From Lepidostoma basale (taxonomy: Eukaryota; Arthropoda; Insecta; Trichoptera; Lepidostomatidae): 64,000 nucleotides of DNA. This document shows, piece by piece, positions 1,586 to 60,935 of the stretch (the first letter of the stretch is position 1; each line of letters starts with the position of its first letter). The translations under genes and the position numbers were made by a program. Location of the stretch: contig JAHDVF020000505.1 of assembly GCA_022606425.2 (NCBI GenBank), forward strand, positions 26,263 to 90,262, written 5' to 3'. Under the pieces are notes generated by a model. That model did no database searches. It saw nothing but the letters and a program-made list of their open reading frames with translations, and was not told where the DNA came from.

Positions 1586-1623
1586 GCCGACTAGTTTCGC
1601 TTGTACCCAAGCTTCCTCAGGGC
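1586..1623 (-). ncRNA. hammerhead ribozyme candidate, family HH8
   Basis: Read on the minus strand the 38 nt contain every element of a type I hammerhead: helix I GCC/GGC, the core CTGAGGA, one extra A, helix II GCTTG/CAAGC with loop GGTA, then GAAAC, a two-base loop TA, and the cleavage triplet GTC. Helix III has only two pairs and is palindromic (ACTAGT), as in small hammerheads of Penelope-like elements and newt satellite DNA that work better as dimers. Matching the motif to that family is established knowledge; activity is inferred. It is the cleanest candidate in the window. An eroded palindromic pair of the same family is at 37025-37145. Confidence 0.7.
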
Positions 1624-1789
1624 TTCGTAATAATAAATTTTTTGAAATGTCCTACCACAAAGTGATTGCTTCATACGATTTTTTTTTATATTTCACAAGA
1701 ATTGATATATCTTTTCCATTTTTTAGACTGTTTATTGTCAGGATCACTCTGTGTTATGAATTCACTTTCGAAAATTTTTTATAAACATC

Positions 1790-2510
1790 TTTATGGAGGG
1801 CTCCAGATCTTCCATGCGGTGCACGTGCCCTCGCCAGCGTAGTCTGTTAATCTTTATAAACTTGACCACGCTGACGTCCTGGTATAGATCGTAGAGCTCT
1901 GTGTTGTATCTCCTTCTCCACGTCTGACCATCCTTAATGGGTCCGAAGATTCTGCGGAGGATCTTCCTTTCGAAGCAGTTTATTTTGCTATACTGCTAAT
2001 TAAAAAAAACGGTCAATACGTGGAACATTAATTAAATAGACAATATGTGCACCATCTAAAAATAACATTTTGTGTTAAATTATTTTTATTTTGTTATTTT
2101 ATTTTATATCAATGTAATTTATATTATTTGTTCTAGATTTATTTTGTGGATGTTGGACGATCGAAGTGTGCGCGGGATATGCCTATTGGTGGGGATGAGG
2201 TTCGCAACCATCACACCGCGTCTCCCGCGGGGCGAAAATATAAGGATGGAGTCCCGCATCGGTTAAAGTGTGACAGTCCATTCATTCTGCCTACCCTTTC
2301 GGGGAAACGGCGTGATGGTTAGTTAGTGAGCGTCCAAGTCTCCGAGGCATATGTTAGGACTGGTCTAATCAGCGTTTTATATATTTTGGTCTTTGTCTTT
2401 CTAGGCAAAGAAAATAATTTTCTGAATTCGGGAAGGCTGAATCTCGATATATTTTTTGCCTGTATTTCAGTTGTGCACAATCGTAACGTTTGAAAACTTT
2501 TCATGTTCAT
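1790..2510 (-). mobile_element. LINE fragment interrupted by NA-1
   Basis: The minus strand at 2328-2510 reads 'KIYKTLIRPVLTYASETWTL' and continues, after the NA-1 insertion at 2001-2327, as 'NCFERKILRRIFGPIKDG' and 'RLRWRGHVHRMEDL' at 1790-1995. These are consecutive parts of the thumb/C-terminal region of a non-LTR reverse transcriptase, so one LINE copy was split by the insertion. No intact frame is left. Confidence 0.75.
2001..2327 (+). mobile_element. NA-1 non-autonomous retroelement, 5'-truncated
   Basis: It contains the aaaacggt...cgtggaacat segment, the GC-rich core (ggacgatcgaagtgtgcgcg and the hairpin-forming tctcccgcgggg) and the LINE-1-like tail ending ggcgtgatggttagttagt. It sits inside a LINE on the other strand. 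The TSD cannot be read because target and tail both resemble TTAG repeats. Confidence 0.8.
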
Positions 2511-2514
2511 ATTA

Positions 2515-3010
2515 AATACGAGTCGAAAAAGATTCGAGAGATTTATGCTGCTTAACTTTATTCAAGATATAACCTTTGTGGTGTTTTCGAGTGTAATCTC
2601 AATCCGCTGTAACCACCCTATTCGGGAGCCAGAAAAAGATTTATTATAAACATTTAAAAGATTTCAGGCATATAAATTAACCTTTTTCGCTGGATCCGTT
2701 TCCTTTCAAATAGAAAGGGCACACAAAAAAGGTGGATGCATTTGAGAACCTTTTGTGAGTGTGACAGCACAACCTTTAAGCGCTTCGTGGAATTCTACAT
2801 GTAAGGTAATACATTTTATTATATAATATATGTTTTATCACTATATAAAGTTTATTCAACATATGTCCGTATTAAGTATTGAATTTATATAAAATTTGGT
2901 TTTCAATTTATTTTTACTTAATTTTATTGGAATCATGTGTTTCGTCTTGCTAAGGAATTTTCAAACGATAATATTCGATAATGTTTTTACAATCGGGGTG
3001 GTGGTCTAGG
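2515..3010. other. unassigned interval
   Basis: Mixed AT-rich sequence without long frames or identifiable repeats. The last bases (gtggtggtctaggg) resemble the A-box half of a tRNA-like SINE whose B-box-like half (ggttcgagcc) appears at about 3363-3372, beyond the next element. Confidence 0.25.
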
Positions 3011-3012
3011 GC

Positions 3013-3330
3013 AGCGTTCCGCAAACGGTGTGCCGCGGCACACTGGTGTGCCGTGAGCCGGATCAGGTGTGCCGTGGCCAAATACATAAAGAAAAAATAT
3101 TTAGTCGGAACGTTGGTGATCTTTTTTTTATTGTTTTTTTAGGCTGTTCAGCTTTTTCCTGAAAAAGGTCCGCAGATTTCTACTGGCCGGAAGTTGCTGG
3201 CAAAAAAAAAGGTTACCAACATCTTCCGAGCTGATCGACGTCTACGTCCAGATGGAATTTTAGCTTTTGGTGTGCCGTGGAATTCTAGGAAGAACTTAGG
3301 TGTGCCGTAGGTGAGAAAACTTTGCGGGGA
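3013..3330. mobile_element. hAT-like MITE (candidate)
   Basis: It begins GCAGCGTTCCGCAAACGGTG and contains several 'ggtgtgccg' units, a composition typical of short hAT-type elements (CAGNGTTCC-like ends). The other end is near actttgcggggatag. The two ends match only over the inner GCAAA part and I cannot find a clean 8-bp TSD. It appears to split a tRNA-like SINE, whose A-box-like and B-box-like halves lie on either side. Confidence 0.45.
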
Positions 3331-3669
3331 TAGAACGCTTAGCTTCTGATCAAAGGGACTTGGGTTCGAGCCTGGACACGACCAGGTTCCTTCTTCATAA
3401 TAATGAGCTATTTTCTGCTCACATTGAAGATTGTAAAATAAATTCTAATATCATTGATTTAAATCTTTGGTGTTAGTCTTTTTTTAAAAAAAAAAATCGA
3501 AACACGTCATTCCCATAAAATAAAATAAAATATAATAAAGCTTCAGAGGTTTTCTTTCTTATTATTTATTAAAAAATGGAAAATGGCTGGAAGAAATAAT
3601 ATAATAATAGTTTTAATGGCTAGGTAAAAAATAATGTGAAATAATTAGGGTTTTTATTTATTATACTAC

Positions 3670-3770
3670 TTGATGATGTCAACATAGGTTGACGAAACAG
3701 CTGTCGCGAAAAATAAAAATAAAAATTGTGATACATAAAAACTAAGTTTTATAATTTAACACTTAATGAT
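3670..3770 (+). ncRNA. hammerhead-like motif, family HH1, plus its tail
   Basis: 3670-3705 reads TTGATGA, T, GTCAAC/GTTGAC hairpin with loop ATAG, GAAAC, AGCT, GTC. Core position 3 is T instead of C, giving a U-G wobble with G8. The tail (gcgaaaaataaaaata...ttgtgatac) matches the tails of the HH1 copies at 33240-33310 and 43787-43860. Confidence 0.6.
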
Positions 3771-3797
3771 TTTTATTTAATGAAAACACTGATTTAT

Positions 3798-3880
3798 CCA
3801 CATTGAGTTTATTTTTTCGACATGTTTCGAAGGTTTTATACCTTCATCATCGGGAAATCGATATAAACTTAAGTGAAAAA
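3798..3880 (-). ncRNA. hammerhead-like motif, family HH2
   Basis: 3819-3853 on the minus strand: CCGATGA, T, GAAGG/CCTTC hairpin, GAAAC, AT, GTC. Position 4 of the core is C instead of the invariant U, so activity is doubtful, but the hairpin is perfect. A second copy, split by a hAT, is at 52100-52720. Confidence 0.5.
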
Positions 3881-6363: not shown

Positions 6364-6470
6364 TTAATACAAATAAAACGTCTGTTTCCTAGAAATTTTA
6401 TTTTGATTTAAGAAAATGAGATGTTTCGCCTGTGTAAGGCATCATCAAATGACATTTGATGATGCCTTAG
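6364..6470 (-). repeat. HH5 palindrome with hammerhead-like motif
   Basis: Minus-strand 6418-6448 reads TTGATGA, T, GCCT/AGGC hairpin, GAAAC, AT, CTC (the GTC triplet is mutated). The second arm (catttgatgatgccttag, 6453-6470) is cut off after half of the hairpin. The outer tail agaaattttatt... matches other HH5 copies. Confidence 0.55.
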
Positions 6471-8039: not shown

Positions 8040-8175
8040 TTCATTCTTAAATAAACTGATTTTTACACATTGAAAATAGAAAAATAACGTTGTTTATTAT
8101 CCACTTATATTTGTATATTAAATATCACGACATGTTTCGAAGGAGACTTCCGTCTTCAGGTATATACGACAATAT
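8040..8175 (-). ncRNA. hammerhead-like motif, family HH3
   Basis: Minus-strand 8129-8159 carries a full core CTGAAGA, a GAAG/CTTC hairpin with loop TCTC after two extra bases CG, GAAAC, AT and GTC. Helix I can form with the flanks (AC/GT plus an A-U rich extension). The downstream tail runs toward 8040 and contains an AT-rich segment like those of the other HH families. Confidence 0.55.
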
Positions 8176-8998: not shown

Positions 8999-9240
8999 AC
9001 GACCTTCGTGGCCGAGTGGCAAGTTCTATGACTATCACACCGAAGGTCTCGGGTTCGATTTCCGGCAATGGCAGTGTGATTGTTTCACTATCTTTGGTCT
9101 AGTGTAGAATTCACGTGACAATAAAATGGCGATAGATTAGTTACCTATCACATATCATGAGAATCAATATAATAGCAATACCCTTATATCAATTTAGCTC
9201 TCGCTGTAATAATGCAAAAAGCGATTCCACATAATTATAA
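8999..9240 (+). mobile_element. tRNA-derived SINE
   Basis: The head has A-box TGGCCGAGTGG and B-box GGTTCGATTTCC, both internal RNA polymerase III promoter elements. The body (tgtgattgtttcac, acaataaaatggcgatagat, tatcacatatcatgagaatc) is shared by the copies at 12785, 43344, 48561 and 54238. The 3' end is an (AAT)n-type run at about 9236-9275. Confidence 0.82.
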
Positions 9241-10909: not shown

Positions 10910-10995
10910 TATAATATGTATCACTGAAGAAGGACTGGTTGTCCGAAACATGTCATGAAGTGTTGTTTATACAAAGTATATAAAAAAGAGTAATA
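10910..10995 (+). ncRNA. hammerhead ribozyme candidate, family HH4
   Basis: 10924-10954: CTGAAGA, one extra A, GGAC/GTCC helix II with loop TGGTT, GAAAC, AT, GTC. All catalytic-core positions fit a hammerhead. The palindromic helix III (ACATGT) predicts dimer-type folding. The tail (tgttgtttatacaaagtata) is shared with the palindromic HH4 pair at 43880-44360. Confidence 0.62.
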
Positions 10996-13042: not shown

Positions 13043-13538
13043 ACTAACTAACTAACTAACTAACTTACCATCACGCCGTCTCCCCGGAGGGGTAGGCAGA
13101 AAGAATGGAACGCCACAATGTTCTGTCCTGACATATGTCTCTCGCTTCCTCTACATTCATACATCTTGTCATGCACGCACGTCGATTTTTCCGACTCCTC
13201 ACGTGACCGACATTCAATATTTGATTGATTTGATCGTGCCACGTTTTCCTCGGCCTTCCTCTATTTCTAGCTCCGTTCACGCCGTTTACATATACCTTCT
13301 TTACCATTCTGTCTTCACTCATTCTTTCCATGTGTCCAAACCATCTTAATGACCCTTTCCTTATTCTGTTCATAACACTTTCATTCGCACCACATTCACT
13401 TCTTATACTTGCATTTGTCACTCTATCATAAACAGATTTGCCACACATTCGTCTTAGAGATCTCATTTCTACTGCATTTATTCTACTTTCATCCTTCTTT
13501 TGCCAGTTCCATGCTTCACTTCCATACATAAGGGTCGG
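13043..13538 (-). mobile_element. LINE-1 3' half, open reading frame largely intact
   Basis: The minus-strand frame encodes 'YGSEAWNWQKKDESRINAVE', 'RSLRRMCGKSVYDRV', 'RWFGHMERMSEDRM', 'NRGRPRKTWHDQINQILNVG' and ends 'SAYPSGETA'. The first ~30 residues of the 187-codon ORF come from the adjoining HH5 repeat, not from the LINE. The LINE part starts at the codons for 'PTLMYGS'. The subfamily differs from the neighbour at 13714-14205. Confidence 0.85.
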
Positions 13539-13551
13539 CACATGTACAAAT

Positions 13552-13640
13552 GTTTGATAATGCCTTAGAAGGGCGAAACATGTCATCACCCAAAAAATAT
13601 AATCAAACTTGTAGAAAAACATAAGTTTTTTCATTCGTAT
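13552..13640 (+). ncRNA. hammerhead-like motif, family HH5
   Basis: 13554-13584: TTGATAA, T, GCCT..GGGC hairpin, GAAAC, AT, GTC. The usual C3-G8 core pair is replaced by U3-A8. The tail (acttgtagaaaaacataagt ... cattcgtattaattatttta) is the HH5 consensus tail. It lies between two convergently truncated LINE-1 copies. Confidence 0.55.
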
Positions 13641-13713
13641 TAATTATTTTATATGGAGTTTTACATCATTATTTAAAAAACAATAAATTATAATAAATTG
13701 TGTTTTTAATACA

Positions 13714-14205
13714 CCGACCCTTATGTATGGAAGCGAAGCATGGAATTGGCAAAAGAAGGATGAAAGTAGAATAAATGCAGTAGAACTGAGATATCTTAGA
13801 CGAATGTGTGGATACTCTGTGTATGATAGAGTGTCGAATGAAAATATAAGAAGTGAATGCGGTGCGAATGATGGTGTCACGAACAAAATATAGAAAGGAT
13901 CATTAAGATGGTTTGGACATATGGAAAGAATGAATAAAAAAAGAATGGTAAAACAATTATATGTGAATGATGTAAATGGATCCAGAAATAGAGGAAGACC
14001 GAGGAAAACGTGGCACGATCAAATAAATCCAATATTGAATGTCGGCCATGTGAGGAGTCAGAGAAATCGACGCGTGTGCATGACACGATGTATGAATGTT
14101 GAGGAAGCGAGAGAAATATGTCAGGAAAGAAAAGTGTGGCAGTCCATTCTTTCTGCCTACCCTTTCGGGGAGACGGCGTGATGGTTAGTTAGTTAGTTAA
14201 GCTAG
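13714..14205 (+). mobile_element. LINE-1 3' half with 8-bp TSD
   Basis: TTAATACA flanks it at 13706-13713 and 14206-14213. The coding part begins at the same LINE-1 codon as the minus-strand neighbour but belongs to a different subfamily, with 'NKKRMVKQLYVNDVNGSRN', and ends 'SAYPFGETA'. One frameshift near 13890 breaks the frame. Confidence 0.85.
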
Positions 14206-14700: not shown

Positions 14701-14870
14701 TGGTTTACACCTATGGGAATGACATGTTTTGCCTGTCTAAGGCATTATCAAATGTTTAAAATATAATGACATTTGACAATGCCCTAGATATATCATTCCC
14801 ATTAATTATAATATAACTTCTGGAAAACAGACATTTTTATTCGTATTAATTATTTAGTATGAAGTTTTGC
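14700..14870. repeat. HH5 palindrome, eroded
   Basis: The left arm on the minus strand reads TTGATAATGCCTTAGACAGG then CAAAACATGTC (G12 lost). The right arm has TTGACAATGCCCTAG followed by a degenerate end. Both tails (ataacttctggaaaacagac on the right) face outward. Confidence 0.6.
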
Positions 14871-14879
14871 GAGTAGTAA

Positions 14880-15735
14880 ACAATCAATAAGTCTAAGCGT
14901 ACATAAATAAATGTATAAATATACTATTATATTAAAATTCTTAAAAAATTAAAAATAACTTTGTTAAAAAAATAATTATAAGTACTTATAACAAATAGCC
15001 CAGTTTAATTTTTATATTTGATTTATTGTGTCGAATTTAAATGTGTTTATACATTAGTCTTTCTTTGTTTAGTTTTTATTATATTTTTACACCTGAAAAT
15101 GGAGGTATCAACTGAAACATGTCGTGTTTTTTTAAATATTTTTTAAAATAATTTGTGGATTAAACAAAGTTTATAAGTAAGTATTTTACTACGGAATTCC
15201 ACAGTGGTAATGCCTTAGTGTTCAATTAGTTTATTATATTAAAATCTGCTCAAATGATGGGATTAAACGAAATCGAAGTATGACCGACTAGATATCAAAA
15301 TATACTTAACAACAATTAAAATGACGATCAATATTTGGAGTAAGACTTGAGAATCACCCTAGCTTTATTCCACCTTTATGACTCGATCTATTATCATATT
15401 GTTTGAATTGCTTGTTCGACTCGAATAATAGAAACTATTGAATAATCTTGTCAAAAAAGTAATAATTCAACATTCAAGTGTTTAGAAGATCTAGTCGTCA
15501 ATAAGAACTTTTTTCTATAAGAGTTATTATTGTTAACCTTTATTGGGCAATACGTTAGAAGATGACTATTTCAGAAAAGATGAAAGTAGCACACAGAGCA
15601 ACAAGTGCCCCTTATGTAAGTAAAGTAACTTTTTTCTTTCAATGTAAATATAATAAGTTCACATGTTCCCCGATTATCGGGAAAGATTTTTCGCGAAACA
15701 AGGAAAATATTTTAGGGAAACTTTTTTCATCTAGA
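14880..15735. other. AT-rich interval with HH-type debris
   Basis: 15097-15123 (acctgaaaatggaggtatca then actgaaacatgtcgtg) resembles an HH motif with the hairpin decayed. 15188 has acggaattccacagtggtaa as at 8654. No gene seen. A 100-codon frame at 15562-15864 runs into the hAT-like end and is taken as chance. Confidence 0.3.
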
Positions 15736-20471: not shown

Positions 20472-20482
20472 ACTATACTTAA

Positions 20483-21681
20483 ACTAACTAACTAACTAAC
20501 CATCACGCCGTCTCCCCGAAGGGGTAGGCAGAAAGAATGGACTGCCACACATTTCTTTCCTGACATATTTCTCTAGCTTCCTCAACATTCATACATCGTG
20601 TCATGCACGCGCGTCGATTTCTCTGACTCCTCACATGGCCGACATTCAATATTTGATTTATTTGATCGTGCCACGTTTTCCTCGGTCTTCCTCTATTTCT
20701 GGTTCCATTTACATCATTAACATATGATTTTTTTACCATTCTTTCTTCATTCATTCTTTCCATATGTCCAAACCATCTTAATGATCCTTTCATTATTTTG
20801 TTCATGACACTATCATTCGCACCGCATTCACTTCTTATATTTTCATTCGGCACTCTATCATACACAGAGTATCCACACATTCGTCTAAGAGATCTCATTT
20901 CAACTGCATTTATTCTACTTTCATCCTTCTTTTGCCAGTTCCATGCTTCGCTTCCATACATAAGGGTCGGAAGAAGAACACCATTGTGCACTGCCATTCT
21001 AGCTTTTTTGATAGGTTTTTGTTTGCGATGACAACTTTAAGTGCACCATTCACTTTGTTGCCTGCCCCAACCCTTCTTTCAATATCCCTCTCCACTCGCC
21101 CATCTCTTGTAAACATACTACCTAAATACACAAACTCAACTACTTGCTCCAAATTTTCACCATTCACGCTAATGTTGCAGACTGTCGTGGTTTCTTCCTT
21201 TTCAAAAATCATTACCTTGGACTTATTAACATTCATCATCAGATCATTTCGCATGCATACCTCATACATACAATTCACCAGGACTTGTAGTTCATGCTCG
21301 TTGTCTGCAAGAAGGACAGCGTCATCCGCATACGAGAGACAGCTTACTGACACTCCGCTCATTTTGGCACCTACATCCAACCCTTTCAGCTCTTTCATAC
21401 ATTTGTTCATACGCAACCCTGTTTGACACCTTTATTGATATCGAACCAGGCTGTAAGATCTCCATTTACTCTGACACTAGCAGTGCTTTCTGTGTATAGC
21501 GACTTAATTGCCGTGATCAGTTTTGTACTTATTCCATATTCAGACAATATTTCCCACAACTTTTCTCTATTAACGTAATCATATGCTTTTTGCAAGTCGA
21601 CAAATGCACAGAAAAGTTTGCAGTTTTTGGCCAGAAACTTTTCTGTCAATGTACGAAGTCCAAAAATTTGATCCATACTAT
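20483..21681 (-). mobile_element. LINE-1, longest copy, with 11-bp TSD
   Basis: Flanked by ACTATACTTAA at 20472-20482 and 21682-21692. The minus-strand product covers the reverse-transcriptase palm and C-terminus: motif A 'FVDLQKAYDYVNREK', motif B start 'NKGVKQGCV', motif C 'SYADDAVLLADN', then 'YLGSMFTRDGRVERDIE', 'PTLMYGSEAWNWQKKDES', 'SLRWFGHMERMNEERM', 'GRPRKTWHDQINQI' and the end 'SAYPFGETA', then the tail and (GTTA)n. The upstream endonuclease and RT fingers are missing through 5' truncation. Three overlapping frames (21407-21676, 20910-21416, 20503-20997) indicate two frameshifts, one just after 'KQGCV' and one after 'KNLSK'. Confidence 0.92.
20503..21676 (-). pseudogene. LINE-1 reverse transcriptase, C-terminal ~390 residues, frameshifted
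   Basis: This is the coding content of the LINE-1 copy. The catalytic aspartates of motif A (FVD) and motif C (YADD) are still encoded. The protein would polymerise cDNA from a nicked target during target-primed reverse transcription. It lacks a start codon in frame with the palm, an endonuclease domain and an unbroken frame, so it is not functional. Sister copies at 27153-27821 and 39761-40390 have the same order of motifs. Confidence 0.85.
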
Positions 21682-22479: not shown

Positions 22480-22740
22480 ATAATTCCACTTTTGTTTATT
22501 ATTTCGACAGCGACCGGTTTCGCCAGGCTCGCTGGTATCGACAGACTGATGACACTATTGTTAACCTAGTCCTTTATAAGCATGCAGATCAGGGGTAGTA
22601 AACATAAATAGTCTTGAAATAATCATGTAAAATTTACTGAATATAAATATTGGTATTATAGGTATATTGACTGTATTTACTGAATTTAAATATTGGTATC
22701 AGGTCGGGACAGGAGTGAATGGATGAATCTGATTATTTAA
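22480..22740 (-). repeat. HH6 repeat
   Basis: Minus strand: GTCGATACCAGCGAGCCTGG then CGAAACCGGTCGCTGTCGAA, with the 5' extension (cctgatctgcatgcttataa) shared with 27860-28030 and 41330-41560. The GCCAG-type hairpin and GAAAC-CG-GTC are kept. The core reads CTGTCGA in other copies, with U at position 6, so a true hammerhead is doubtful. Confidence 0.6.
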
Positions 22741-27859: not shown

Positions 27860-28140
27860 TAAAAAAAAAGTGACCGAAGTTTATTTGAATACGAACCTCC
27901 TTGAATACCTGTAATATCAATATTTAAATTCAATAAATTTTACATAAATATTTGAAGATTATTTTTGTGTAGAATCATGTTTGCCACCCCTGATCTGTAT
28001 GTATATAAAGGACTAAGTTTACAATAGTGTCACCAGTCTTTCGATGCCAGCGAGCCCGGCGAAACCGGTCGCTGTCGAAATAAAGACAAAAGTGGAAGTA
28101 GTTAAAAAACATCGTTTTATTTAATTATTATTTAAAATGA
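27860..28140 (+). repeat. HH6 repeat, long form
   Basis: The 5' extension (about 27900-28030) is shared with HH6 copies at 22550 and 41330. The motif is CTTTCGATGCCAGCGAGCCC then GGCGAAACCGGTCGCTGTCG, followed by aaataaagacaaaagtggaa. The bases gtcttt before and aaagac after the motif can pair as helix I. Confidence 0.6.
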
Positions 28141-28204
28141 ACTTCCACCAAGAGATTTCAGTAAAATCATTTGATTATCCAAAAAAAGTGATTTTAAAAA
28201 CAAA

Positions 28205-28445
28205 TTTTTCTTAATTAATACGAATGAAAACGTCCGTTTTCTAGAAGTTTTATTATATTTTATGGGAATGGCATGTTTCGCCCTTCTAAGGCATTATCAA
28301 ATATACACAATAATTTTATCATAATCAAATGTGCAAATATATTAAATAAAATAAAATACATAAAATAAAATAAAACTTCTAGAAAGACGTTTTCATTCGT
28401 ATTAATTATTTAATATGGAGTTTTACATCATTGTTCAAGAAACAA
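28205..28445. repeat. HH5 palindrome
   Basis: The left arm (minus 28267-28299) reads TTGATAATGCCTTAGAAGGG, CGAAACATGCC (GTC to GCC). The right arm retains only the tail from acttctagaaagacgttttc. The middle is AT-rich with aaataaaata repeats. Confidence 0.6.
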
Positions 28446-30561: not shown

Positions 30562-30685
30562 TGTATTATGTAATCGATATTAAAACGTAGAAATTCTGAT
30601 TCATGTTATACTCGTACACCACTAATGCTATGCTTTGATAAAGAATTCGAAACGTTAATTAATATCTGTACTTGGTAACAAATCT

Positions 30686-33060: not shown

Positions 33061-33121
33061 TAACATTTTATAACTGTTGATGCAAAAACTTTGTTTTATA
33101 TCACAATTGTATTCATTTTAC

Positions 33122-33157
33122 GACAGCTGTTTCATCAACCAATGTTGACATCATCAG
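33122..33157 (-). ncRNA. hammerhead ribozyme candidate, HH1 left arm
   Basis: CTGATGA, extra T, GTCAAC/GTTGAT hairpin (outer G-U pair), GAAAC, AGCT, GTC. The full catalytic core is present. Helix III can be ACAG/CTGT in a dimer or AC/GT with an AGCT loop. Confidence 0.65.
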
Positions 33158-33216
33158 GTGTTACAAAAATATGTCAAATGTTTGATATAAATACATTGGA
33201 TATATTTTTGTAACAC

Positions 33217-33252
33217 CTGATGATTTCAACATTGGTTGATGAAACAGCTGTC
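33217..33252 (+). ncRNA. hammerhead ribozyme candidate, HH1 right arm
   Basis: CTGATGA then TTTCAACATTGGTTGAT, GAAAC, AGCT, GTC. One base change in helix II relative to the left arm (G to T at the outer pair) weakens the stem. Helix I can form as AC/GT followed by a U-rich/A-rich pairing of the flanks. Confidence 0.62.
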
Positions 33253-33329
33253 GTAAAATAAATATAATTGTGATATAAAACAAAGTTTTTGCATTAACAG
33301 TTATAAAATAAATGTTTGTTAACTTATTA

Positions 33330-34700
33330 GCAGATCGAACAGATCGAACTTTGCCTCGAAGACATAAATAAAAGTATAAAAAGTCTTAAAAACCGGAAAA
33401 CACCTGGCATTGATAAGATCTCCAATGAGCTCATCAAGTATGGAGGAGATAAACTATCGGAGGAATGTCGCCTACTCTTCAACAATATACTGTATTCATC
33501 ACGAATCCCAGAAGAATGGAAAACTAGTATCACTATACCGATATTCAAGAAGGGTGAAAAGTCCAAACCGGAAAACAATAGGGGAATATCGCTTCTATGC
33601 TCAACCCTAAAACTCTTCACGAATATCTTAAAAAACAAAATGGAGAACGTTATCATAAACATAGAAGAGCAACAGGGATTTCGAAAAACAGGTCTTCAAC
33701 TGATGCCATCTTCGTTGTAAGACAGCTAAAAGAGAAGGCGATCGAGTACAATAAGCCAGCTTTCGTATGTTTCGTCGACCTGACTAAGGCATTCGACCGA
33801 GTGAGACTTAATGATGTACTGGATGTCCTGTTGAGAAGAAATGTAACTCACAACGTCATAAATATCACACGAGAACTCAATACAAATACCAACACGAAGA
33901 ACTGTCCAAACCCGGTAGACGGAGAACTGTCCAAACCCATAAAAACTTCAACAGGGATGAGACAAGGAGACAGTTTGAGCCCATTTCTTTTCAACCTCAT
34001 TATGGATGAAATAATAGGAGATATCACATCACTCGGTTTGGGATACTGCATAGGGAAGGATGTAGTGAGCGTCATATGCTACGCGGACGATGCTGTACTG
34101 ATAGCAGAGTCGGAAGACGAACTGCAAAGACTTTTAAATAGATTTCAGACAACGGCCGCCAACTACAATATGATGATCTCAGTTGAAAAAACAAAAACCA
34201 TGACATTCTCAAAAGAACCCTTAGGATGCAGGTTATCCTTATGATGATGAAATGACAGAATGCTGGAACAGGTTGCAAAGATTAGATATCTGGGAGTAGA
34301 TCTGTTCAGTCAAAATGATCTTGTCAGTGAAACAATAGGACAAGTCAACAAGGCTTCGGCGGTATCAGGTTGTCTCAAGGATATAATATGGAAAAACAAG
34401 TATATGAGAACTGACAGTAATGTCAGAATATATAAAACCTGCGTAAGGCCTATACTGACATATAGCATTGAGACCAGAGCGGATACCACAAGAACGAAGG
34501 CTATAGTACGGGTGGCAGAGATGAGGACGCTGAGGATGATAGCAGGAAAGACTATTCGCGATAGGGTGAGGAATACGGCCATCCGCGAGATCTGCAAGGT
34601 GGAGGATGTCGTGAGATGGGGCTGACAACGCAGAAGATGCTGGAATGCGCACGTGCAGAGGATGGATCCCACCAGAACCCCACACGCTGTGGCGCATCAG
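33330..34700 (+). pseudogene. LINE-2 reverse transcriptase, frameshifted
   Basis: In order: 'SLKNRKTPGIDKISNELIKY' (RT start, K-x-P-G-x-D), 'RIPEEWKTSITIPIFKKGEK', 'NNRGISLLCSTLKLF', frameshift near 33690, 'AFVCFVDLTKAFDRV' (motif A), 'GMRQGDSLSPFLFNLIMDE' (motif B), 'VICYADDAVLIAES' (motif C, catalytic YADD), 'MISVEKTKTMTFS', frameshift and stop near 34244, then 'IRYLGVDLFSQNDLVSE' and 'TIRDRVRNTAIREICKVED'. Two shifts and several stops make it non-functional, although the catalytic aspartates are kept. Confidence 0.88.
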
Positions 34701-36560: not shown

Positions 36561-36689
36561 CTGCAGTAGTATATGCGATTCTGTAAGTGTCCATACTGTT
36601 CTGTTCCAACTCGCGATGCTCGCAGTATTGCAAGTTTTCTTTATTCGTGTAAAAATATATGAATAGATTAAATAATGTTTATTCTATTA

Positions 36690-36910
36690 TTAATTTCTGT
36701 TTGCCTTTTTCACATTTTTAAATGTATAATAAATAATGAAAAAAAAAATTGATACAAAATTTCTTTATTATTATGTATTTAGTGTGCTTCCACTTGCGTT
36801 AATGTTCGACCAGTTTCGGCAGCTTGCTGCCATCTTCTGGTCTAGGCAGCAAGCTGCCGAAACCGGTCGAACACAAACACAAGCGGAAGCACACTAAATA
36901 CATAACAATA
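36690..36910. repeat. HH7 palindrome
   Basis: Arms share cgaccagtttcggcagcttg / caagctgccgaaaccggtcg and outer tails ggaagcacactaaatacata. The motif on the minus strand is CAGAAGA, T, GGCAG/CTGCC hairpin, GAAAC, TG, GTC. Position 4 is A rather than U, so it is hammerhead-like only. A single plus copy is at 59085-59185. Confidence 0.65.
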
Positions 36911-37024
36911 AAGAAATTTTGTATAATTTTTTTTTGTTTTCATTATTTAAAATTTATTTCACAATATTAAATATTCAAATATATAATATAAAAAATCACT
37001 TTTGTATTTTGACCATGGAATCGT

Positions 37025-39115: not shown

Positions 39116-39310
39116 GTAAAACTCTTTATTTAGACGTTTTCATTTGTATTAATAGTTAATACAAATGTCTGTTCTCTAGAAGTTTTATTATATTTTACGG
39201 GAATGACGTGTTTCACCTTTCTAAAGCAGTATCAAATGCCACTAATCATACATTTGATAATGCCTTAGACATACTATAATACGACTTCTAAAAAAACAGA
39301 TTTTTCATTC
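39116..39310. repeat. HH5 palindrome
   Basis: The left arm (minus) is TTGATACTGCTTTAGAAAGG then TGAAACACGTC; the right arm (plus) is TTGATAATGCCTTAGACATA then degenerate. Tails tctagaagttttattatatt and cgacttctaaaaaaacagat face outward. Confidence 0.6.
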
Positions 39311-40984: not shown

Positions 40985-41215
40985 TTTATTTTTATGTTAT
41001 TAAAATAAACAAAAGTTGTTTAAAAATATAATAGAAGAACCTAAAATTCTATAAATGATATGAAATATTCACGACACGTGTTTCGTCTTATGAGGACATC
41101 TTCGAGTGTCCTCATAAGACGAAACTCGTGTCGTGAATATTTCATATCATTTATAGAATTTTTGGTTCTTCTATTTTCAAATAACTTTTGTTTATTTTAA
41201 TAACATCATTATGGA
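40985..41215. repeat. HH10 palindrome, long arms
   Basis: Arms of about 105 bp (40990-41094 and 41107-41212) are nearly identical: tgatatgaaatattcacgac and its inverse, extending to gttattaaaataaacaaaag. The centre holds the motif TCGAAGA, T, GTC..GAC, GAAAC, ACGT, GTC (minus). Position 4 is C rather than U, as in HH2. Confidence 0.7.
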
Positions 41216-41254: not shown

Positions 41255-41560
41255 TTATATATTTCCACTTTTGTCATTGTTTCGACAGCGACTGGTTTCG
41301 CCAGGCTCGCTGGCATCGACAGAATGGTAACACAATTGCAAACTGAGTCTTTTATAAACAGACACAGGTGGTAAACATTGTTTTTTACAAAAAGAATCTT
41401 AAAATAAAAAAAAATGTAAAGTTTACTTAATTTAAATATTGGTATAAAAGTTATTTAAGAGGATTCGTATTCAATAGAATGAATTAAAACATTTATTATA
41501 GCTGACATATTTATATATAACGTTTGAAAAATTGGTACGTATGTTTTTAATATTACTGAA
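41255..41560 (-). repeat. HH6 repeat, long form
   Basis: cgacagcgactggtttcgcc and aggctcgctggcatcgacag, with the 5' extension (cagacacaggtggtaaacat, tttaaatattggta) seen also at 22570-22700. Confidence 0.6.
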
Positions 41561-43282: not shown

Positions 43283-43496
43283 GACGACCTTCGTGACAGA
43301 GTGGCAAGAGCAAGAGCTGATGCCGAAGATATCTTCGGTGTTGCAGTTTCACGTACATCGCCATTTTTATTGCCACGTGAATTGTACACCGCACCATAGA
43401 AAGTGTGACAATCATACTGCCATCGCCGGGAATCGAACTCGGGACCTTCGGTATTGCAGTCAGACCTCTCCACTTTGTCACGAAGGTACCGTATGA
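43283..43496. mobile_element. tRNA-derived SINE, inverted pair
   Basis: A plus head (A-box region cgtgacagagtggcaagagc, 43283-43343) is joined to a complete minus head with B-box and body (43344-43496). The structure is a fold-back SINE. No TSD was recognised. Confidence 0.75.
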
Positions 43497-43750: not shown

Positions 43751-43870
43751 CTGACGATGCTAACATTGGTTAGCGAAACGACTGTCGCGACAAAATATAA
43801 TCAATTGTGATATTTATAAAAAAGTTTTTTTATTTAAACAGTTAATAAATGTATTCTGTATACGCCATAC
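43751..43870 (+). ncRNA. hammerhead ribozyme candidate, HH1
   Basis: 43751-43786: CTGACGA, extra T, GCTAAC/GTTAGC hairpin with loop ATTG, GAAAC, GACT, GTC. Full core with position 7 = C, which is a variable site. Helix II differs from 33122-33157 by compensatory changes (GTCAAC to GCTAAC with GTTGAC to GTTAGC). Tail as in other HH1 copies. Confidence 0.68.
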
Positions 43871-43879: not shown

Positions 43880-44360
43880 TTATGATGCTTTTATATATTT
43901 CTCTTTTTAAATTTTATATACTTTGTATAAACAACACTTATATTGAAAAAATAAAATTACATAGATATGTTTCGGACAACCAGTCCTTCTTCAGTGATAC
44001 ATATTATACGCCCACGCCGAGAGTACCTGGAGGACCTGTTGGTGGACGTACGCTGCTCATCATATGCAGATCTCAAAAGAGTCGCACAAGACAGGGAAAA
44101 ATGGAAGAGAATAATGGAGGAAATTGCTGCAAACCAATCCCAGGATTGAAACCAGAGAAGAAGACATATTATAAAGATACATTAAACAAATATTATATTT
44201 TTTTTTACATGATCTGAAAGATATCTGTCAGATCATGTAAATAATTTTAAAATGCATCTTTATAATATGTATCACTGAAGAAGGACTGGTTGTCCAAAAC
44301 ACGTCAACGTAATTTTTTTTAAAAATATAAGTGTTGTGTATACAAAGTATATAAAAATAA
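43880..44360. repeat. HH4 palindrome interrupted by a LINE end
   Basis: The left arm is minus (core CTGAAGA, GGAC/GTCC, GAAAC at 43964-43994, GTC mutated to ATC). The right arm is plus at 44275-44305 (G12 mutated, giving AAAAC). Both tails have tttatatactttgtataaac. A LINE-6 3' end lies between the arms. Confidence 0.7.
44010..44165 (+). mobile_element. LINE-6 3' end
   Basis: Reads 'RVAQDREKWKRIMEEIAANQ' then 'SQD' and stop, with a short GAAGAAGA end. This is the common final segment of a LINE protein. The 122-codon frame at 43849-44217 mixes HH4 and LINE sequence and is not a gene. Confidence 0.7.
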
Positions 44361-44364
44361 AAAT

Positions 44365-44700
44365 AGAGAAAATGTTAATAAATGATTTACAAAATATTAC
44401 ATTTCACCATTGTCTTCTTAACATAGTTTATGAAGTGCTTGTTGAGAAATATCAAATAAAATTATACAGAATAGTTGGCAGAGGTGTTTTAGTTAAAGAT
44501 AAAGGGCAAAGCGAGGGATGTTTATGTATATGGCCGCTGTAAATTTCGAGAAAGACAAGAAGGGAATTTGTCCCGCCCGCGCCCACTTCGACACAAACAC
44601 TCACCTTGGCCCCATATACGCTAGCAGTGGCGCAACGTTATCAGAATAATCTTGATTTCTATCAACTCAAATAACTATCATACTAGTATTTTGTTAAAAG
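44365..44700. other. unassigned interval
   Basis: GC-richer at 44565-44640 (tcccgcccgcgcccacttcg). No motif or repeat recognised. A 68-codon plus frame precedes it without support. Confidence 0.25.
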
Positions 44701-46189: not shown

Positions 46190-46930
46190 TGTTCATACAA
46201 TGATTTCTCAAAGGTCTTTGATTCTGTGAACCACGTCATTCTGATGGCAAAGCTATCTCAAATTGTATTCTCTTCTCAATTGATTATTTTTTTCATTAGT
46301 TATCTCGAGGGGAGAAAACAATTCGTCTCATACGGAATTTTTCAATCGGAACATTTTTTTATACATTAAGGGGTACCACAAGGCTCAAACCTAGGCCCAC
46401 TCCTCTTCACCATCTTCATAAATGATATTGCGAAGGTGATAAACTTCTCGCGATTTCTTTTATTTGCCAATGATCTGAAATTATTCCTAGAAATTAACAA
46501 TCTTTACTACTGTCTACACCTCCAATCGGACATTAATAATATTGTTAACTGGAGTCACAGTAATCAAATGCAATTCAATGTCTCTAAGTGCGTTATGCTA
46601 TCTTTAACTAGAGCATTGAAAATTGTGTATTATAGATACACAATGAACAACCAGCAACATGTATCTACAATGAAAGATCTCGGGATCATCTATAGAATAG
46701 AGAATAGGCTGACTTTTCGTGCACATATTGAGAGGATTTGTGGCACTGCACTGAGGATGTTGGGCTTCATTGTCCGGACCGGCAGAGTTTTCAGGGATCC
46801 TCATGTGCTCAGAGTCCTATACAACGAATTGATTCGGAGCAGACTCGAAAGTGGTTCTGTGATATGGAGTCCTCACGAGGCGAGATATTCCGTTATGCTG
46901 GACAGGGTTCAGAAAAAAATTCTGAAGTAA
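46190..46930 (+). pseudogene. LINE reverse transcriptase fragment, CR1/Jockey-like
   Basis: 'SKVFDSVNHVILMAKLS' (motif A region), a stop, 'GVPQGSNLGPLLFTIFINDI' (motif B), then 'FLLFANDLKLFLEI', where the catalytic YADD-type box has become FAND (first D lost), then 'WSHSNQMQFNVSKCVMLSLT' and 'LYNELIRSRLESGSVIWSPH', ending 'LDRVQKKILK'. The last 164 codons are open. The lost aspartate and the stop make it inactive. Confidence 0.85.
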
Positions 46931-48560: not shown

Positions 48561-48795
48561 GTCGACCTTCGTGGCAGGGTGGTAAGAGCTCTGACTTCCA
48601 TACCGAAGGTCCTGGGTTCAATTCCCGGCGATGGCAGTGTGATTGTCACACTGTCTTTGGTCTGGTGTGGAATTCACGTGACAATAAAATGGGGATAGAT
48701 TGGCTACCTATCACATGTCACGAGAATCAATATAATAGCTAAAAAAAATGTATACCGTAATTGGGTTCAAGCAACCTGTTATATGCATAAAAAAA
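48561..48795 (+). mobile_element. tRNA-derived SINE, best copy
   Basis: A-box TGGCAGGGTGG and B-box GGTTCAATTCC at normal spacing; the head folds like a tRNA (tccataccgaaggtcctggg). The body includes ttggtctggtgtggaattca, gtgacaataaaatggggata and cctatcacatgtcacgagaa; the 3' end is A-rich. Confidence 0.85.
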
Positions 48796-50858: not shown

Positions 50859-50984
50859 ATATAAAAATAGGTTTAAAATAAATCAAAAACCTTGTTTTTG
50901 AAAACATGTACAATGTATTTAGATATAAATAAACATTGCAAAACACAAACAAATTTATATTTAAATAATAATTAAATAAAACGA

Positions 50985-51190
50985 TGTTTTTTTAACTACT
51001 TCCACTTTTGACTTTATTTCGACAGCGACCGGTTTCGCCAGGCTCGCTGGCATCGACAGACTGGTGTTAAATGGTGTTAAATCTGCCAGCGAGCCTGGCG
51101 AAACCGGTCGCTGTCGAAATAAAGACAAAAGTGGAAGTAGTTAAAAAACATCGTTTTATTTCATTATTATTTAAAATGAACATCCATTAA
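50985..51190. repeat. HH6 palindrome
   Basis: Arms aaacgatgttttttt...cgacagcgaccggtttcgcc and gcgaaaccggtcgctgtcga...aaacatcgttttatt are inverted around ctggtgttaaatggtgttaa. Identity of the arms is high. Confidence 0.75.
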
Positions 51191-54229: not shown

Positions 54230-54237
54230 CCGTTCAA

Positions 54238-54425
54238 AGGCGAGCTCGTGGCAGAGTGGCAAGAGTCATGACTGCCACACCGAAGGTCCCGTGTTCGATT
54301 CCCGGCGACAAAATTCTCACACTGTCTTTGGTCTGATAGAATTCACGAGACAGTAATAAAGCGATAGATAAGCTACCTATCACATGTCATGAGAATCAAT
54401 AGCTAAAATAGGTGTACAATAATTG
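54238..54425 (+). mobile_element. tRNA-derived SINE
   Basis: A-box TGGCAGAGTGG, B-box GTTCGATTCCC, body with several small deletions. It runs directly into an HH5 tail at 54427. Confidence 0.8.
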
Positions 54426-54426
54426 G

Positions 54427-54550
54427 TTTATTGTTTCTTGAACAATGATGTGAAACTCCATATTAAATAATATTTGATAATGCCTTAGGCAGGCGAAACA
54501 TGTCATTTACTTAAATTATAATAAAACTTCTAGAAATCAGACGTATTTAT
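54427..54550 (+). repeat. HH5 repeat
   Basis: 54474-54504: TTGATAA, T, GCCT/AGGC hairpin, GAAAC, AT, GTC. All positions fit a hammerhead apart from the U3-A8 pair, so it is the best-preserved HH5 copy. An inverted tail fragment (ttgtttcttgaacaatgatg) precedes it. Confidence 0.6.
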
Positions 54551-55589: not shown

Positions 55590-55810
55590 ATGGAAGTTCA
55601 TTTTAAATAATAATTAAATAAAACGATGTTTTTTAACTACTTCCACTTTTGTCTTTATTTAGACAGCGACCGGTTTCGCCAGGCTCGCTGGCTCGCAGGC
55701 TCGCTGGCAGACCAGTCTGTCGATGCCAGCGAGCCTGGCGAAACCGGTCGCTGTCTAAATAAAGACAAAAGTGGAAGTAGTTAAAAAACATCGTTTTATT
55801 TAATTATTAT
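55590..55810. repeat. HH6 palindrome
   Basis: Arms aaacgatgttttttaactac ... gacagcgaccggtttcgcca and the inverse meet at cgctggctcgcaggctcgct, a duplicated stretch of the hairpin loop. Both arms carry tttagacagc instead of tttcgacagc, so one arm was probably copied from the other. Confidence 0.78.
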
Positions 55811-56190
55811 TGAAATTAAAATATAGGTCTACAGCAATGAAGAAGAAGAAGAAGATTTAAAGACCAAAAGTTTAATATTTCTGTATATTGTGAGGAATTC
55901 TTAAAAAGTACTAGCCGGTTTAAAATCACTAGAACCGGCACAATATGCAGAGGGCCGCCTATGATCTCTGAGTTCGTCAATACTTGGATGTTTTTACGAA
56001 CTAAATAATAATAATAAGTCTGACTAGCTCTTATTTTATCTGTCACGAATCAAATTTTGTTACTTTCAAGCTCCTAGGAACGAGGATATGATACGTATAT
56101 GTACATATATTTGCATTACACTGTAACAGAGATTTGAACGGAAATGAACGGAGTTTTTTTTTACAAATTTCAGTCCAAAACAAAAAAACA
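55811..56190. other. unassigned interval
   Basis: A GAAGAAGAAG run at 55838 may be an isolated LINE end. Nothing else recognised. Confidence 0.25.
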
Positions 56191-56199: not shown

Positions 56200-57126
56200 C
56201 GAGGTATGTTCATAAAGTATCGCGAATTTTGAATTTCCGCCGGTTACGTATATTCGATTTTTGATTTTTTTGTGGCGTTATGTTGGTACTCATGTCTCTC
56301 ACTTATGCCGATAAGTTCGGCCAGTTTGAATGTTCAGTTAATTTTTGAGAGCCACTTTGCTTGCACGTGTTTTGGCTCGTCTTCGATTTTTGCACACTCC
56401 AAAAAAAATGGATCAATGAATCTGTATCAAATTTTGAGTGAAAAACAAAATTAAGTCCCCGGACGCATTCCGAATGTTGACTGTGGCATATGGTGAAGCT
56501 ATCTTGGACCAAAGCAGCGTTTATCGGTGGTACAAAATGTTCTCAGAGGACCGAGAAGATGTGAACGAAAAAGAGCCTGCCGGACGCCCGAGCACGTCAA
56601 CAACAGACGAAAACATTGATGAAGTGAATAACATAGTATTGGCCAATCGTCGAATCACCGCTAGAGAAGTTGTTGAGGACTTAAACATATCGCTTGGCTC
56701 GTGCCATTCGATTTTTACCAATGATTTGGGCATGAGATCGGTCGCCGCGAAATTCGTACCAAAATTGCTCAATTTCGCATCTGCTTGTGCGCGAATTTTT
56801 GGCCAAAACAACACACCAATAATGCCGCAGCCACCGTATTCCCCAGATCTGACCCCTGTGACTTTTTCTTGTTCCCGAAACTGAAGAGGCCCATGAAAGG
56901 ACGACGCTAGGCTACGATTGAGGAGATAAAGACGGCATCGAAGGAGGAGCTGAACAAGATCACAAAAAATGATTTTTTGGGGTGCTTCGAGGATTGAAAA
57001 AAACGTTGGCACAAGTGTATAATATCTGGTTGGGATTACTTTGAAGGGGACAAAATAGAAATTCATGAATATATAAATAATTTTTGAAAAAACACAAAAT
57101 TCGCGATACTTTTTGAACGGACCTCG
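56200..57126 (+). mobile_element. mariner element, internally deleted, 927 bp
   Basis: Termini CGAGGTATGTTCATAAAGTA and (inverted) CGAGGTCCGTTCAAAAAGTA extend over about 30 bp (to cgcgaattttg). TA flanks at 56198-56199 and 57127-57128. A complete member should be near 1.3 kb; about 0.4 kb of transposase is missing. Confidence 0.88.
56407..57065 (+). pseudogene. mariner transposase, central catalytic part deleted
   Basis: The N-terminal DNA-binding region is clear: 'SPDAFRMLTVAYGEAILDQS', 'VYRWYKMFSEDREDV', 'AGRPSTSTTDENIDEV', 'GMRSVAAKFVPKLLNF'. It then jumps to 'NNTPIMPQPPYSPDLTPV' and, after shifts, the C-terminal 'LKRPMKGRR', 'EEIKTASKEELNKITKNDF' and 'YFEGDKIE' segments. The regions with the first and second catalytic D are deleted and the third (the D after 'AP') is changed to 'TPVT', so none of the DD34D triad remains. 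The start is taken from the frame at 56407; a stop follows at 56452 (AAATTAAG), and an ATG at 56438 is out of frame with the upstream part. Confidence 0.85.
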
Positions 57127-58749: not shown

Positions 58750-59080
58750 CTGAAGTACACATAATTTTAATTGCTTAGATATTTTATGTAATACTAAGAA
58801 ATCTAAATTTGTTAACTCTTTTGATTGATTAGCGTTGTATGACGTCACGAAGTACGTCATTTCATTTCAAAATGATAACGTTCAACGGGTCACACAAACC
58901 GTTTAAATTTCATCTATATTACGGTGAAAAATCGTATTTTCTGTATTTATGTTATAATAAATTTACATTATATAGAATCATTTCAACTTAATGACAGTAA
59001 TACATTATTTAAAATCAGAAAAAAATGTTTAACCCCCACCACTATCATTTATTATATTATATAAACCAAATAAATGTTGA
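58750..59080. other. unassigned interval
   Basis: Includes the inverted pair acgtcacgaagtacgtcat (58841-58860). No other feature. Confidence 0.25.
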
Positions 59081-59084
59081 TGTA

Positions 59085-59185
59085 GGTAACAGAAGATGGC
59101 AACAAGCTGCCGAAACCGGTCGAACATAAACACAAGTGGAAGCACACTAAATAAATAATAATAAAGAAAATTTGTATCAAAATTG
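59085..59185 (+). repeat. HH7 repeat, single copy
   Basis: acagaagatggcaacaagct then gccgaaaccggtcgaacata, tail acaagtggaagcacactaaa. Compared with 36776-36905 one base in the hairpin differs (GGCAA/CTGCC). It has position 4 = A. Confidence 0.6.
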
Positions 59186-59276
59186 TTCTGTTTTCATTAT
59201 TTTAAATGAACTTCTACAAAAAAATTTCAATTAAAAACATTATTAATTTTTAATATTATTGAATTTAAATAAACTA

Positions 59277-59735
59277 CCTAACTAACCATCACGTCATTTC
59301 CCCGGAGGGGTAGGCAGAGAGGATCGATTGCCACAATGCTCTGTCCTGGCATACCTCTCGGGCTTCCTCTACATTCATACATTGTACCATGCACGCACGT
59401 CGATTATTCAGACTTCGAATTGGGCCGCCTTTTAGTAATTGATTAATTTGGTCATGCCATGTTTTCCTCGGTCGTCCTCAGCTTCTTTTTCCACTCACGC
59501 TGCTTGTGTATAACTTTTTAACCATTCTTCTCTTATCCATTCGTTCCATATGTCCAAACCATCTCAGGGCTAACTAACTAACCATCACGCCGTCTCCCCG
59601 AAAGGGTAGGCAGAAAGAATGGACTGTCACACTTTAACCGATGCAGCACTCCATCCTTCTCTTTTCGCCCCGCCGGAGACGCGGTGTGATGGGTTGCGAA
59701 CCTCATCGCCACAATCAACCATCTCAGGGAATTTA
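59277..59735 (-). mobile_element. LINE-1b copy split by NA-1
   Basis: The left tail taactaaccatcacgtcatt begins the copy; the coding part reaches tgtccaaaccatctcaggg, then NA-1 is inserted. The duplicated target is the LINE's own sequence. Confidence 0.82.
59570..59716 (-). mobile_element. NA-1, 147 bp, 5'-truncated, 13-bp TSD
   Basis: AACCATCTCAGGG flanks it (59557-59569 and 59717-59729). It contains the taac tail, the LINE-1-like end and the GC-rich core, truncated near aggttcgcaacc. This is direct proof that NA-1 inserts with target duplications and 5' truncation, as LINE-dependent elements do. Confidence 0.9.
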
Positions 59736-59824
59736 CATAAAATATGTTATATATGCAGGTCCTTTAGGTTGGCGTCCCCTATTTTGGTTTTAGTTGATAG
59801 AAACATCAAAATATAAATCTATAA

Positions 59825-60105
59825 TTATATAATCTTAAACGACACACAGCTGAAGGTAGGCCACTTCCAAAGCACGCCACTGCTCCCTGTCCATCGCCAC
59901 TCTCACTGATACTTTCTCGTTCAATATCCACGCTTACCCGACTACGAACAGCTTGACCATAAAAACATGATGTAGTATTTCTGGAAGGGAAACCACGCAC
60001 ACCTCTCCAGGTTCGTTGATCCCGTTTGAATCGTGAGAAATAAAATGGCGACAGCAACCCAGAAGTTGTTACTTGAAGTGCCTGTTCCGTTAACCCCTTA
60101 ATACT
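59825..60105 (-). mobile_element. probable LINE 3' fragment
   Basis: In one minus frame the end reads 'MDREQWRALEVAYLQLCVV' and stop, the D-x-E-x-W-R pattern of LINE C-termini. The longer 100-codon frame (59806-60108) is in a different phase and probably a shadow. Confidence 0.4.
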
Positions 60106-60109
60106 CACT

Positions 60110-60655
60110 TATCCGATATGAACTGCTGAGAATTCCCCAAAATTCATTTTATATCATTGTCATGTATAGATTGATCGACTGTTTCATATTTTGCCAGGGA
60201 TTCAATTTTCCCACTACATAGATTCTTTACGATGTATATAAATAAAGATTTGAAGAGATTTCTCACAGTTCAGCGGAGAGTAGTAGTCTAACCAATGGCG
60301 TGCCCGACTAATATATTGTTTTAAATAATGCCATTTATGTACATAAACACTGTTTTTTTATTCGATAAATTAAGTTATAAACAACAACAAAAACATTTTT
60401 CTTACAACTATCATAGTATTTTTTTTTTTAATTTTTCTTGATTTTTTATCATTTTAATATTAAATACAATGCAAAGATGATAAAATTATCTAAATGCTTA
60501 AAAATCTTTAGGTTTCAAGATGAACCTGCGCTAGATTTCGTTAAAACATTTGACTGATATGTTAGATATATTATATATTATTGAAGAATAATTCTTCTTG
60601 AAGTTTACTTTGTGTTGACATTTTAAATAATGTTTTTAATAAAAAAAACTTCTTT
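60110..60655. other. unassigned AT-rich interval
   Basis: ttaaccccttaatactcact at 60090 resembles a piggyBac-type end but has no partner. The remainder is AT-rich. Confidence 0.25.
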
Positions 60656-60660
60656 TTATT

Positions 60661-60935
60661 TTGTATAACAACACTTTTATTATGAGACACCACTACTACT
60701 AGTTTTGAACACGAAGTGTTCTTATAACCCTATACTAATTATATTCCCACTAAACTGGCCTTTCCCAATTAAGGAGAAGACATCTACCTGTTAACTTTCT
60801 CTTTCCCCCTCCCCATTACCTTTCTTGTTCCTTAACTTTAATCTGTGTTTATAACTTTAGTACATAAACTACCCTGAAGAAGAACACTTCGTGTTCGAAA
60901 CTAGTAGTAGTGGTGTCTCATAATAAAAGTGTTGT
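60661..60935. repeat. HH9 palindrome with one intact arm
   Basis: Outer tails caacacttttattatgagac and its inverse; inner hairpins gaacacgaagtgttc / gaacacttcgtgttc. The spacer is about 130 bp. The left arm has lost its core (gggttataa). The right arm is intact. Confidence 0.72.
60874..60906 (+). ncRNA. hammerhead ribozyme candidate, HH9
   Basis: CTGAAGA, extra A, GAACAC/GTGTTC helix II (6 pairs, loop TTC), GAAAC, TA, then GTA as the cleavage triplet (the NUH rule allows A). Flanking ACTAC and GTAGT can pair as helix I with one bulged C. Full catalytic core. Confidence 0.62.

Follow-up and report, generated by a model that had tools for sequence, protein, structure and literature searches.

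Dispersed repeats with hammerhead-like motifs in Lepidostoma basale are probably related to Penelope pseudo-LTRs

A 64-kb stretch of DNA from the insect Lepidostoma basale (contig JAHDVF020000505.1), called the window below and the basis of all in-window counts, carries AT-rich repeats with a motif that resembles the hammerhead ribozyme. What are these repeats, and is the motif a hammerhead? We consider it probable that they are fragments or short non-autonomous relatives of the pseudo-LTRs (pLTRs) of a Penelope-like element (PLE). The majority contain a type I hammerhead of the minimal kind, frequently degenerate; in one family (family A) it adjoins a predicted transcription start. Catalysis is doubtful for several families, whose cores appear too mutated to cut RNA.

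An initial annotation of the window had described a common layout of CTGANGA, hairpin, GAAAC, short loop and GTC or GTA, and had listed seven full cores, all of which were found where it placed them. Our exact descriptor (CTGANGA, 0 to 3 unpaired bases, a hairpin with 4 bp or more, GAAAC, 2 to 5 nt and GTH) has 7 sites in the window, and in 40 order-2 Markov shuffles both the mean and the maximum were 0; the architecture is real. A hairpin is present at all seven sites, as claimed, but it is never flush with CTGANGA, and its outer pair is broken at 33217. A descriptor scan requiring stem II to be flush with CTGANGA gave 0 sites. The sites were recovered when 0 to 3 unpaired bases were allowed, and a spacer was therefore recognised. 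If the box may differ at up to one position, there are 18 window sites versus a shuffle mean of 0.65 (maximum 3; 40 shuffles), and if it may differ at up to two, 30 versus 4.4 (maximum 11), certain sites being counted twice, in two registers, by the mismatch-tolerant descriptor. When the box was ignored and the only requirement was a hairpin of 4 bp or more directly abutting GAAAC-N2-4-GTH, the window had 22 sites versus 3.5 in 40 shuffles (maximum 10). Swapping GAAAC for seven other pentamers gave 1 to 4 window sites each. The generic box-GAAAC-GTC pattern CTGANGAN{10,18}GAAACNNGTC in viral and prokaryote contigs was used as background only (240 matches listed, 121 viral and 119 prokaryote). 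Three of these 240 listed matches have a stem of at least 4 bp flush with GAAAC and a 1-nt spacer, and 15 of 240 have such a stem with any spacer of 0 to 3 nt; the same pattern has three matches in the window, all with such a stem (two with a 1-nt and one with a 2-nt spacer). A stricter, stem-fixed pattern gave 0 matches in the viral contigs.

Does the motif vary as a hammerhead fold should? Eighteen copies, 17 of them distinct, were aligned, leaving out the box-less arms of head-to-head pairs. Across the 17 distinct copies the hammerhead structure (stems I, II and III plus the C3-G8 core pair) pairs 84.3% of the cells; the shuffles reach 64.0 ± 2.1%, and versions of the structure slid by 1 to 3 columns no more than 52.9%. 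The covariation score of the same copies is 0.561, versus 0.198 ± 0.029 in shuffles and at most 0.169 in the slid versions. The shuffle controls overstate the significance because same-family copies are related and the sites were picked by motif; the slid controls have the same relatedness as the real alignment, yet they favour a structure read off these sequences. The C3-G8 pair is kept in 17/17 distinct copies (CG 14, UA 2, UG 1). Since both U-A copies belong to family C, the U-A form counts as one event in this set; outside it, three further family C copies read TTGATAA and one reads TTGATGA. U3-A8 is known from natural hammerheads, according to the available text of PMC3088659. The closing pair of stem I is kept in 15 of the 17 distinct copies. 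Stem II covaries across copies, and in family D it shows two compensatory double changes (GTCAAC/GTTGAC versus GCTAAC/GTTAGC). Covariation in stems I and II, at C3-G8 and in these compensatory pairs bears out the earlier proposal that pairing is kept while the sequence changes. GAAAC and GT are invariant, partly by construction because the sites were selected on GAAAC and GTH, and position 17 is C in 17 of the 18 copies and A at 60906; the copies have the GAAA, the A15.1-U16.1 pair and the H17 of a type I hammerhead. Judged from the sequences, covariation at C3-G8 and in stem I is specific to the hammerhead fold.

A covariance model (R1) built from 18 copies was searched against the window with filters off. 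It gave 39 matches up to E 1 and 28 below E 0.001, the latter consisting of the 18 training copies, three box-less pair arms and seven others. These seven boxed copies outside the training set scored 22.1 to 29.7 bits (three of family C, two of H, one of J and one of K); families J and K were absent from training yet found. The best R1 score in viral loci preselected for the pattern was 21.0 bits (40 of 80 listed loci, searched with default filters, unlike the window). The repeat at 41073/41121 had at first seemed a plain palindrome, but with R1 the left of its two arms proved to hold a boxed core, in degenerate form.

By our own grouping the copies fall into 11 families, A to K, and family tallies below use one representative per family. 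The copies beyond those listed initially include family A (CTGTCGA box), family B (CAGAAGA), family C (TTGATAA) and others. An exact CUGANGA box is found in D (3 of 4 copies), E, G, H and I, and a substituted one in A (A6U), B (U4A), C (U3/A8) and F (U4C). In the families with an intact stem II, one unpaired base lies between CTGANGA and that stem, and two lie there at 8129 and 33217. The core of family E (1589-1620, minus strand; CTGAGGA, 1-nt spacer, 5-bp stem II, ACTAGT helix III and GCC/GGC stem I; R1 35.5 bits) is, on its sequence, the best candidate for catalysis. Other cores are those of G (8129-8159, minus; CTGAAGA, 2-nt spacer; 37.5 bits), H (10924-10954, plus; CTGAAGA, stem I closing pair mismatched; 35.3 bits) and F (3819-3853, minus; CCGATGA with U4C; 36.1 bits). 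Family D has single cores at 3670-3705 (plus; TTGATGA, ACAGCTGT helix III; 42.7 bits) and 43751-43786 (plus; CTGACGA, with the two compensatory stem II changes; 41.3 bits). Family C cores with TTGATAA (U3-A8) lie at 13554-13584 (plus; 35.2 bits) and 54474-54504 (plus; 34.0 bits), and the copies outside model training, all on the minus strand, at 6414-6452 (TTGATGA; 22.1 bits), 14717-14755 (TTGATAA; 27.0 bits) and 28266-28304 (TTGATAA; 24.4 bits). Family J has a degenerate core (15089-15127, plus; CTGAAAA; 23.0 bits) without an intact stem II and with a downstream GTGG plus AAACAAAGTTT block.

Such short motifs are expected to act as dimers. According to the available part of PMC6466107, the helix III loop of double hammerheads has to be palindromic, and those of eukaryotes must also be arranged in tandem. 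The 2-nt helix III loop is self-complementary (AT, TA or CG) in 8/8 intact-stem families when the commonest or only strong copy is taken; in family B this holds for only one of two boxed copies, and family D has a 4-nt loop, AGCT, in 3 of 4 copies. Of the 22 GAAACNNGTC sites that the window holds, 17 have a self-complementary loop. Among the 240 control matches listed the number is 46, and 28% of the 114 ACNNGTC occurrences anywhere in the window are self-complementary. The exceptions are 41290 (CA), 36808 (TG), 43751 (GACT), 44271 (AC) and the degenerate copies at 39205 and 3499 (both AC). The loop that a dimer would need is thus mostly present, and the tandem arrangement is absent from the window.

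The flanks carry further common signals. The initial annotation called the repeats unrelated-looking, which does not hold downstream of the motif: 3' of GTC, 7/10 family representatives have GTGG or TGTGAT plus a AAACAAAGTTTT-like block (up to 3 substitutions allowed), versus 1.3% of random window positions, although the block had caught the eye before this test was made. A small hairpin, AAAC-N3-4-GTTT (ATACAAAGTAT in family H), is found in 5/10 representatives versus 5.4%. Family A, the best preserved, has a TATA box and an initiator-like sequence: TATATAAA lies about 30 nt before a CCAGT that closely precedes the box, and AATAAA lies 8 nt after GTC. Its longest unit (27885-28179, plus; core 28038-28070, CTTTCGA; 38.8 bits) has about 155 nt of upstream sequence with TATATAAA and CCAGT, then the core, AATAAA, AAGTGG and AAACATCGTTT. 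Other family A cores with CTGTCGA are found at 22512-22544 (minus; upstream TATA and TCAGT; 41.1 bits) and 41290-41322 (minus; upstream TATA; 44.9 bits). The family B core at 59090-59121 (plus; CAGAAGA with U4A; 34.7 bits) has a TATA 30 to 37 nt upstream of the box. Only these two families, A and B, show a clear TATA at about -30.

Seven head-to-head pairs were found in the window, two in family A and one each in B, D, H, I and K. Both arms have the box in family H (43898-44371; arms 43898-44008, minus, and 44261-44371, plus), and the family D pair (33065-33309) has arms 33065-33181 and 33193-33309 with cores at 33122-33157 (minus) and 33217-33252 (plus). In the other five pairs one arm is without the box, its start lying roughly at the 5' base of stem II: family A at 50960-51175 (51027/51100; boxed core 51027-51059, minus; plus arm from stem II) and 55602-55815 (55668/55740; boxed core 55717-55749, plus; minus arm from stem II), family B at 36687-36994 (36808/36859; boxed core 36808-36839, minus; plus arm from stem II at 36845), family K at 40994-41206 (boxed core 41069-41109, minus, TCGAAGA; plus arm from spacer and stem II) and family I at 60665-60938 (boxed core 60874-60906, plus; inverted arm 60665-60723 from about stem II). 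Because they begin at about stem II, the box-less arms extend across the position where cleavage would occur; an RNA template, if there was one, was uncleaved there.

TATA and initiator-like sequences and head-to-head inverted copies are described for pLTRs in the available text of PMC3846280, and both are found here. In that account, the endonuclease-containing PLEs of Adineta vaga have pLTRs of about 180 to 220 bp, one with TATA plus an Inr-like sequence; one pLTR is shorter and the tail is optional; inverted pairs are mostly head to head, with palindromic junctions ascribed to self-priming; and the pLTR sequences were inferred to be sufficient to move a host gene. The repeats described here resemble them in the TATA and initiator-like sequence, the head-to-head pairs, the palindromic junction and the one shorter unit. 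They differ in that no Penelope ORF was found between or beside units in the window, and in that the units shared here are often only about 60 to 110 nt long. For one PLE it is also described, in the accessible part of PMC11167929, that its protein cleaves and extends both strands, that an AC-rich stem loop lying 3' of the hammerhead is where reverse transcription begins, and that hammerhead mutants still insert. Taken together, the RNA of the L. basale repeats may start just upstream of the motif, and two hammerheads may pair via the self-complementary ACNNGU to form a dimer that, given an intact core, would be active. Copying of the RNA would then begin in its AT-rich tail, near the AAAC-GTTT hairpin or below it, by a reverse transcriptase of PLE type encoded elsewhere. 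Head-to-head pairs could arise from copying at both sides of a cut or from self-priming at the junction. Insertion is probably independent of cleavage.

Several observations weigh against a PLE origin or an active hammerhead. The type I rule that stem II directly follows A9 (the 10.1-11.1 pair) is broken by the spacer, and the whole of stem I is paired in only 63.2% of the cells (17 distinct copies). Family A has A6U in 5/5 boxed copies, one of them also G5U, and family B has U4A in 2/2; both families are multi-copy despite these core mutations, which would be expected to cripple cleavage. The Rfam hammerhead model RF00163 gave 0 matches in the window at its gathering threshold, and the best sub-threshold match (26.4 of 34 bits, at 41067-41138 in the family K pair) was the only one. 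For the two candidates that the initial annotation put forward as best, Rfam reported no hammerhead even with the limit relaxed to E 10 (searched at 1560-1650 and 60845-60940), one of the outcomes that the annotation itself had listed as refuting its view. The joint downstream block is missing in families B, C and H among the 10 representatives. No adjacent direct tandem of one family was found in the window, only singles and head-to-head pairs, the nearest same-strand copies of one family lying about 2.4 kb apart (52005, plus, weak, and 54474, plus). No target-site duplication was recognised by eye at six pairs; Adineta PLE copies often have one of 8 to 10 bp (PMC3846280, in the text available). 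A search for GIY-YIG gave 0 matches in the 18 whole ORFs and two pieces scanned among 37 ORFs of at least 110 aa. The likeness to PLEs is drawn from published descriptions, not from nucleotide alignment.

Two explanations that give up cleavage have to be weighed here. Under the first, which we hold with low confidence, the hammerhead fold would have been retained as a cis-acting retrotransposition structure rather than for RNA cleavage. The fold and the downstream GTGG/AAAC-GTTT block would jointly mark the positions of 5' ends and of reverse transcription. If true, this would explain the spread of families with disabled cores, and also the inverted copies that end at the base of stem II and cross the cleavage site. 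The second, which we regard as unlikely, is that hairpin and tail are a cis-acting signal (for RNA export, polyadenylation or reverse-transcriptase binding) that merely resembles a hammerhead. The multi-copy families A and B, which retain hairpin, GAAAC and tail with mutated cores, and the inverted arms across the would-be cleavage site are in its favour. Against it, a dimeric hammerhead would need just such self-complementary helix III loops and covariation at C3-G8, although the U-A form behind the C3-G8 argument comes from one family only.

Fold-back DNA transposons (MITEs), in which the motif would be a subterminal palindrome within terminal inverted repeats and its hammerhead likeness incidental, are improbable. 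The inverted arms are closely alike (98% for 60665-60723/60880-60938 and 93% for 33065-33309), as MITE arms would be, but they are unequal, one arm being box-less from stem II in five of seven pairs; families A and D also include single units without an inverted partner, no fixed target duplication was recognised by eye at six pairs, and the covariation of C3-G8 and stem I is hammerhead-specific. Least probable of all is an identity with metazoan retrozymes, which are non-autonomous repeats in tandem that give rise to circular RNAs through their hammerheads: the repeats here share with them a non-coding, AT-rich nature, type I-like motifs and a family A unit of about 300 nt, but retrozymes are described in the available text of PMC7229834 as tandem repeats of about 150 to 450 bp, of which those tested cleave, whereas these repeats are dispersed, often inverted, non-canonical in the core and Rfam-negative, and the one long array found by Tandem Repeats Finder in the window lacks the motif.

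With the pLTR reading preferred, how does this locus compare with other hammerhead-bearing elements? Minimal type I hammerheads of PLEs and Terminons are reportedly to be credited to Cervera and de la Pena 2014 and Lunse et al. 2017. Dispersed motifs of this sort are already known. The view in the initial annotation that so many families are unusual is not upheld: thousands of minimal type I hammerheads occur in many metazoan genomes, mostly dispersed and some on Penelope pseudo-LTRs (PMC7761336, in the part available), and one coral has more than 6000 motifs, minimal or canonical, in 16 families, with up to 1508 canonical (PMC7229834, likewise). As far as the accessible descriptions go (PMC7761336, PMC7229834, PMC6466107), PLE/Terminon motifs have in common with ours the CUGANGA/GAAA core, a very short helix III with a self-complementary loop, dispersal in many families and the expectation of acting as dimers. 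Compared with those descriptions, the repeats here have no adjacent tandems and two core-mutated families; their one or two unpaired bases before stem II may be a further difference. The PLE PAc of Anolis, according to the available text of PMC11167929, likewise has a hammerhead and then a downstream stem loop where reverse transcription starts, and its insertion is independent of cleavage. In PAc, hammerhead and ORF start overlap, with the stem loop 111 to 118 bp into the ORF; unlike PAc, these repeats have the small hairpin about 14 to 38 nt after GTC and no ORF following. What the window adds is an insect region dense in PLE-type minimal hammerheads (11 families, as grouped by us, in 64 kb), with details that can be tested: the extra base before stem II, the block common to most families, the core-mutated families that still multiplied and the inverted copies starting at the base of stem II.

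Other repeats and ORFs in the window were recorded as well. RVT_1 matches were found in four scanned ORFs, at 33582-34244, 46370-46930, 30663-31340 (below its cut-off) and 20910-21431; none has a GIY-YIG match, and we take these ORFs to resemble LINEs. For one RT ORF 113 relatives were listed, and the 15 of them with an organism name are all from wasps or beetles, in keeping with an insect genome. A LINE-like repeat with a C-terminal ORF is spread across 13050-59567 (e.g., 20482-20781). One 300-nt stretch of it occurs seven times, its tails are (TTAG)n or (CTAA)n, and the long inverted repeat 13053-14199 is made up of two copies. Relaxed-threshold Rfam matches in the window, mostly to microRNA and sRNA families, were rejected since all fell under their cut-offs; two of them, at 33132-33242 and 55659-55806, correspond to inverted pairs described above, of family D and family A respectively. 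The long array of Tandem Repeats Finder lies at 61395-61735 (three 115-bp units, 98% matches), with no R1 match. An ORF at 56438-56884 has a weak HTH_32 match (23.1 bits, below cut-off) and presumably resembles a broken mariner-type transposase. A tRNA-Gly(TCC) call at 48565-48636 lies within a dispersed repeat (also at about 9002-9169, 43357-43487 and 54237-54429), which is possibly a tRNA-derived SINE.

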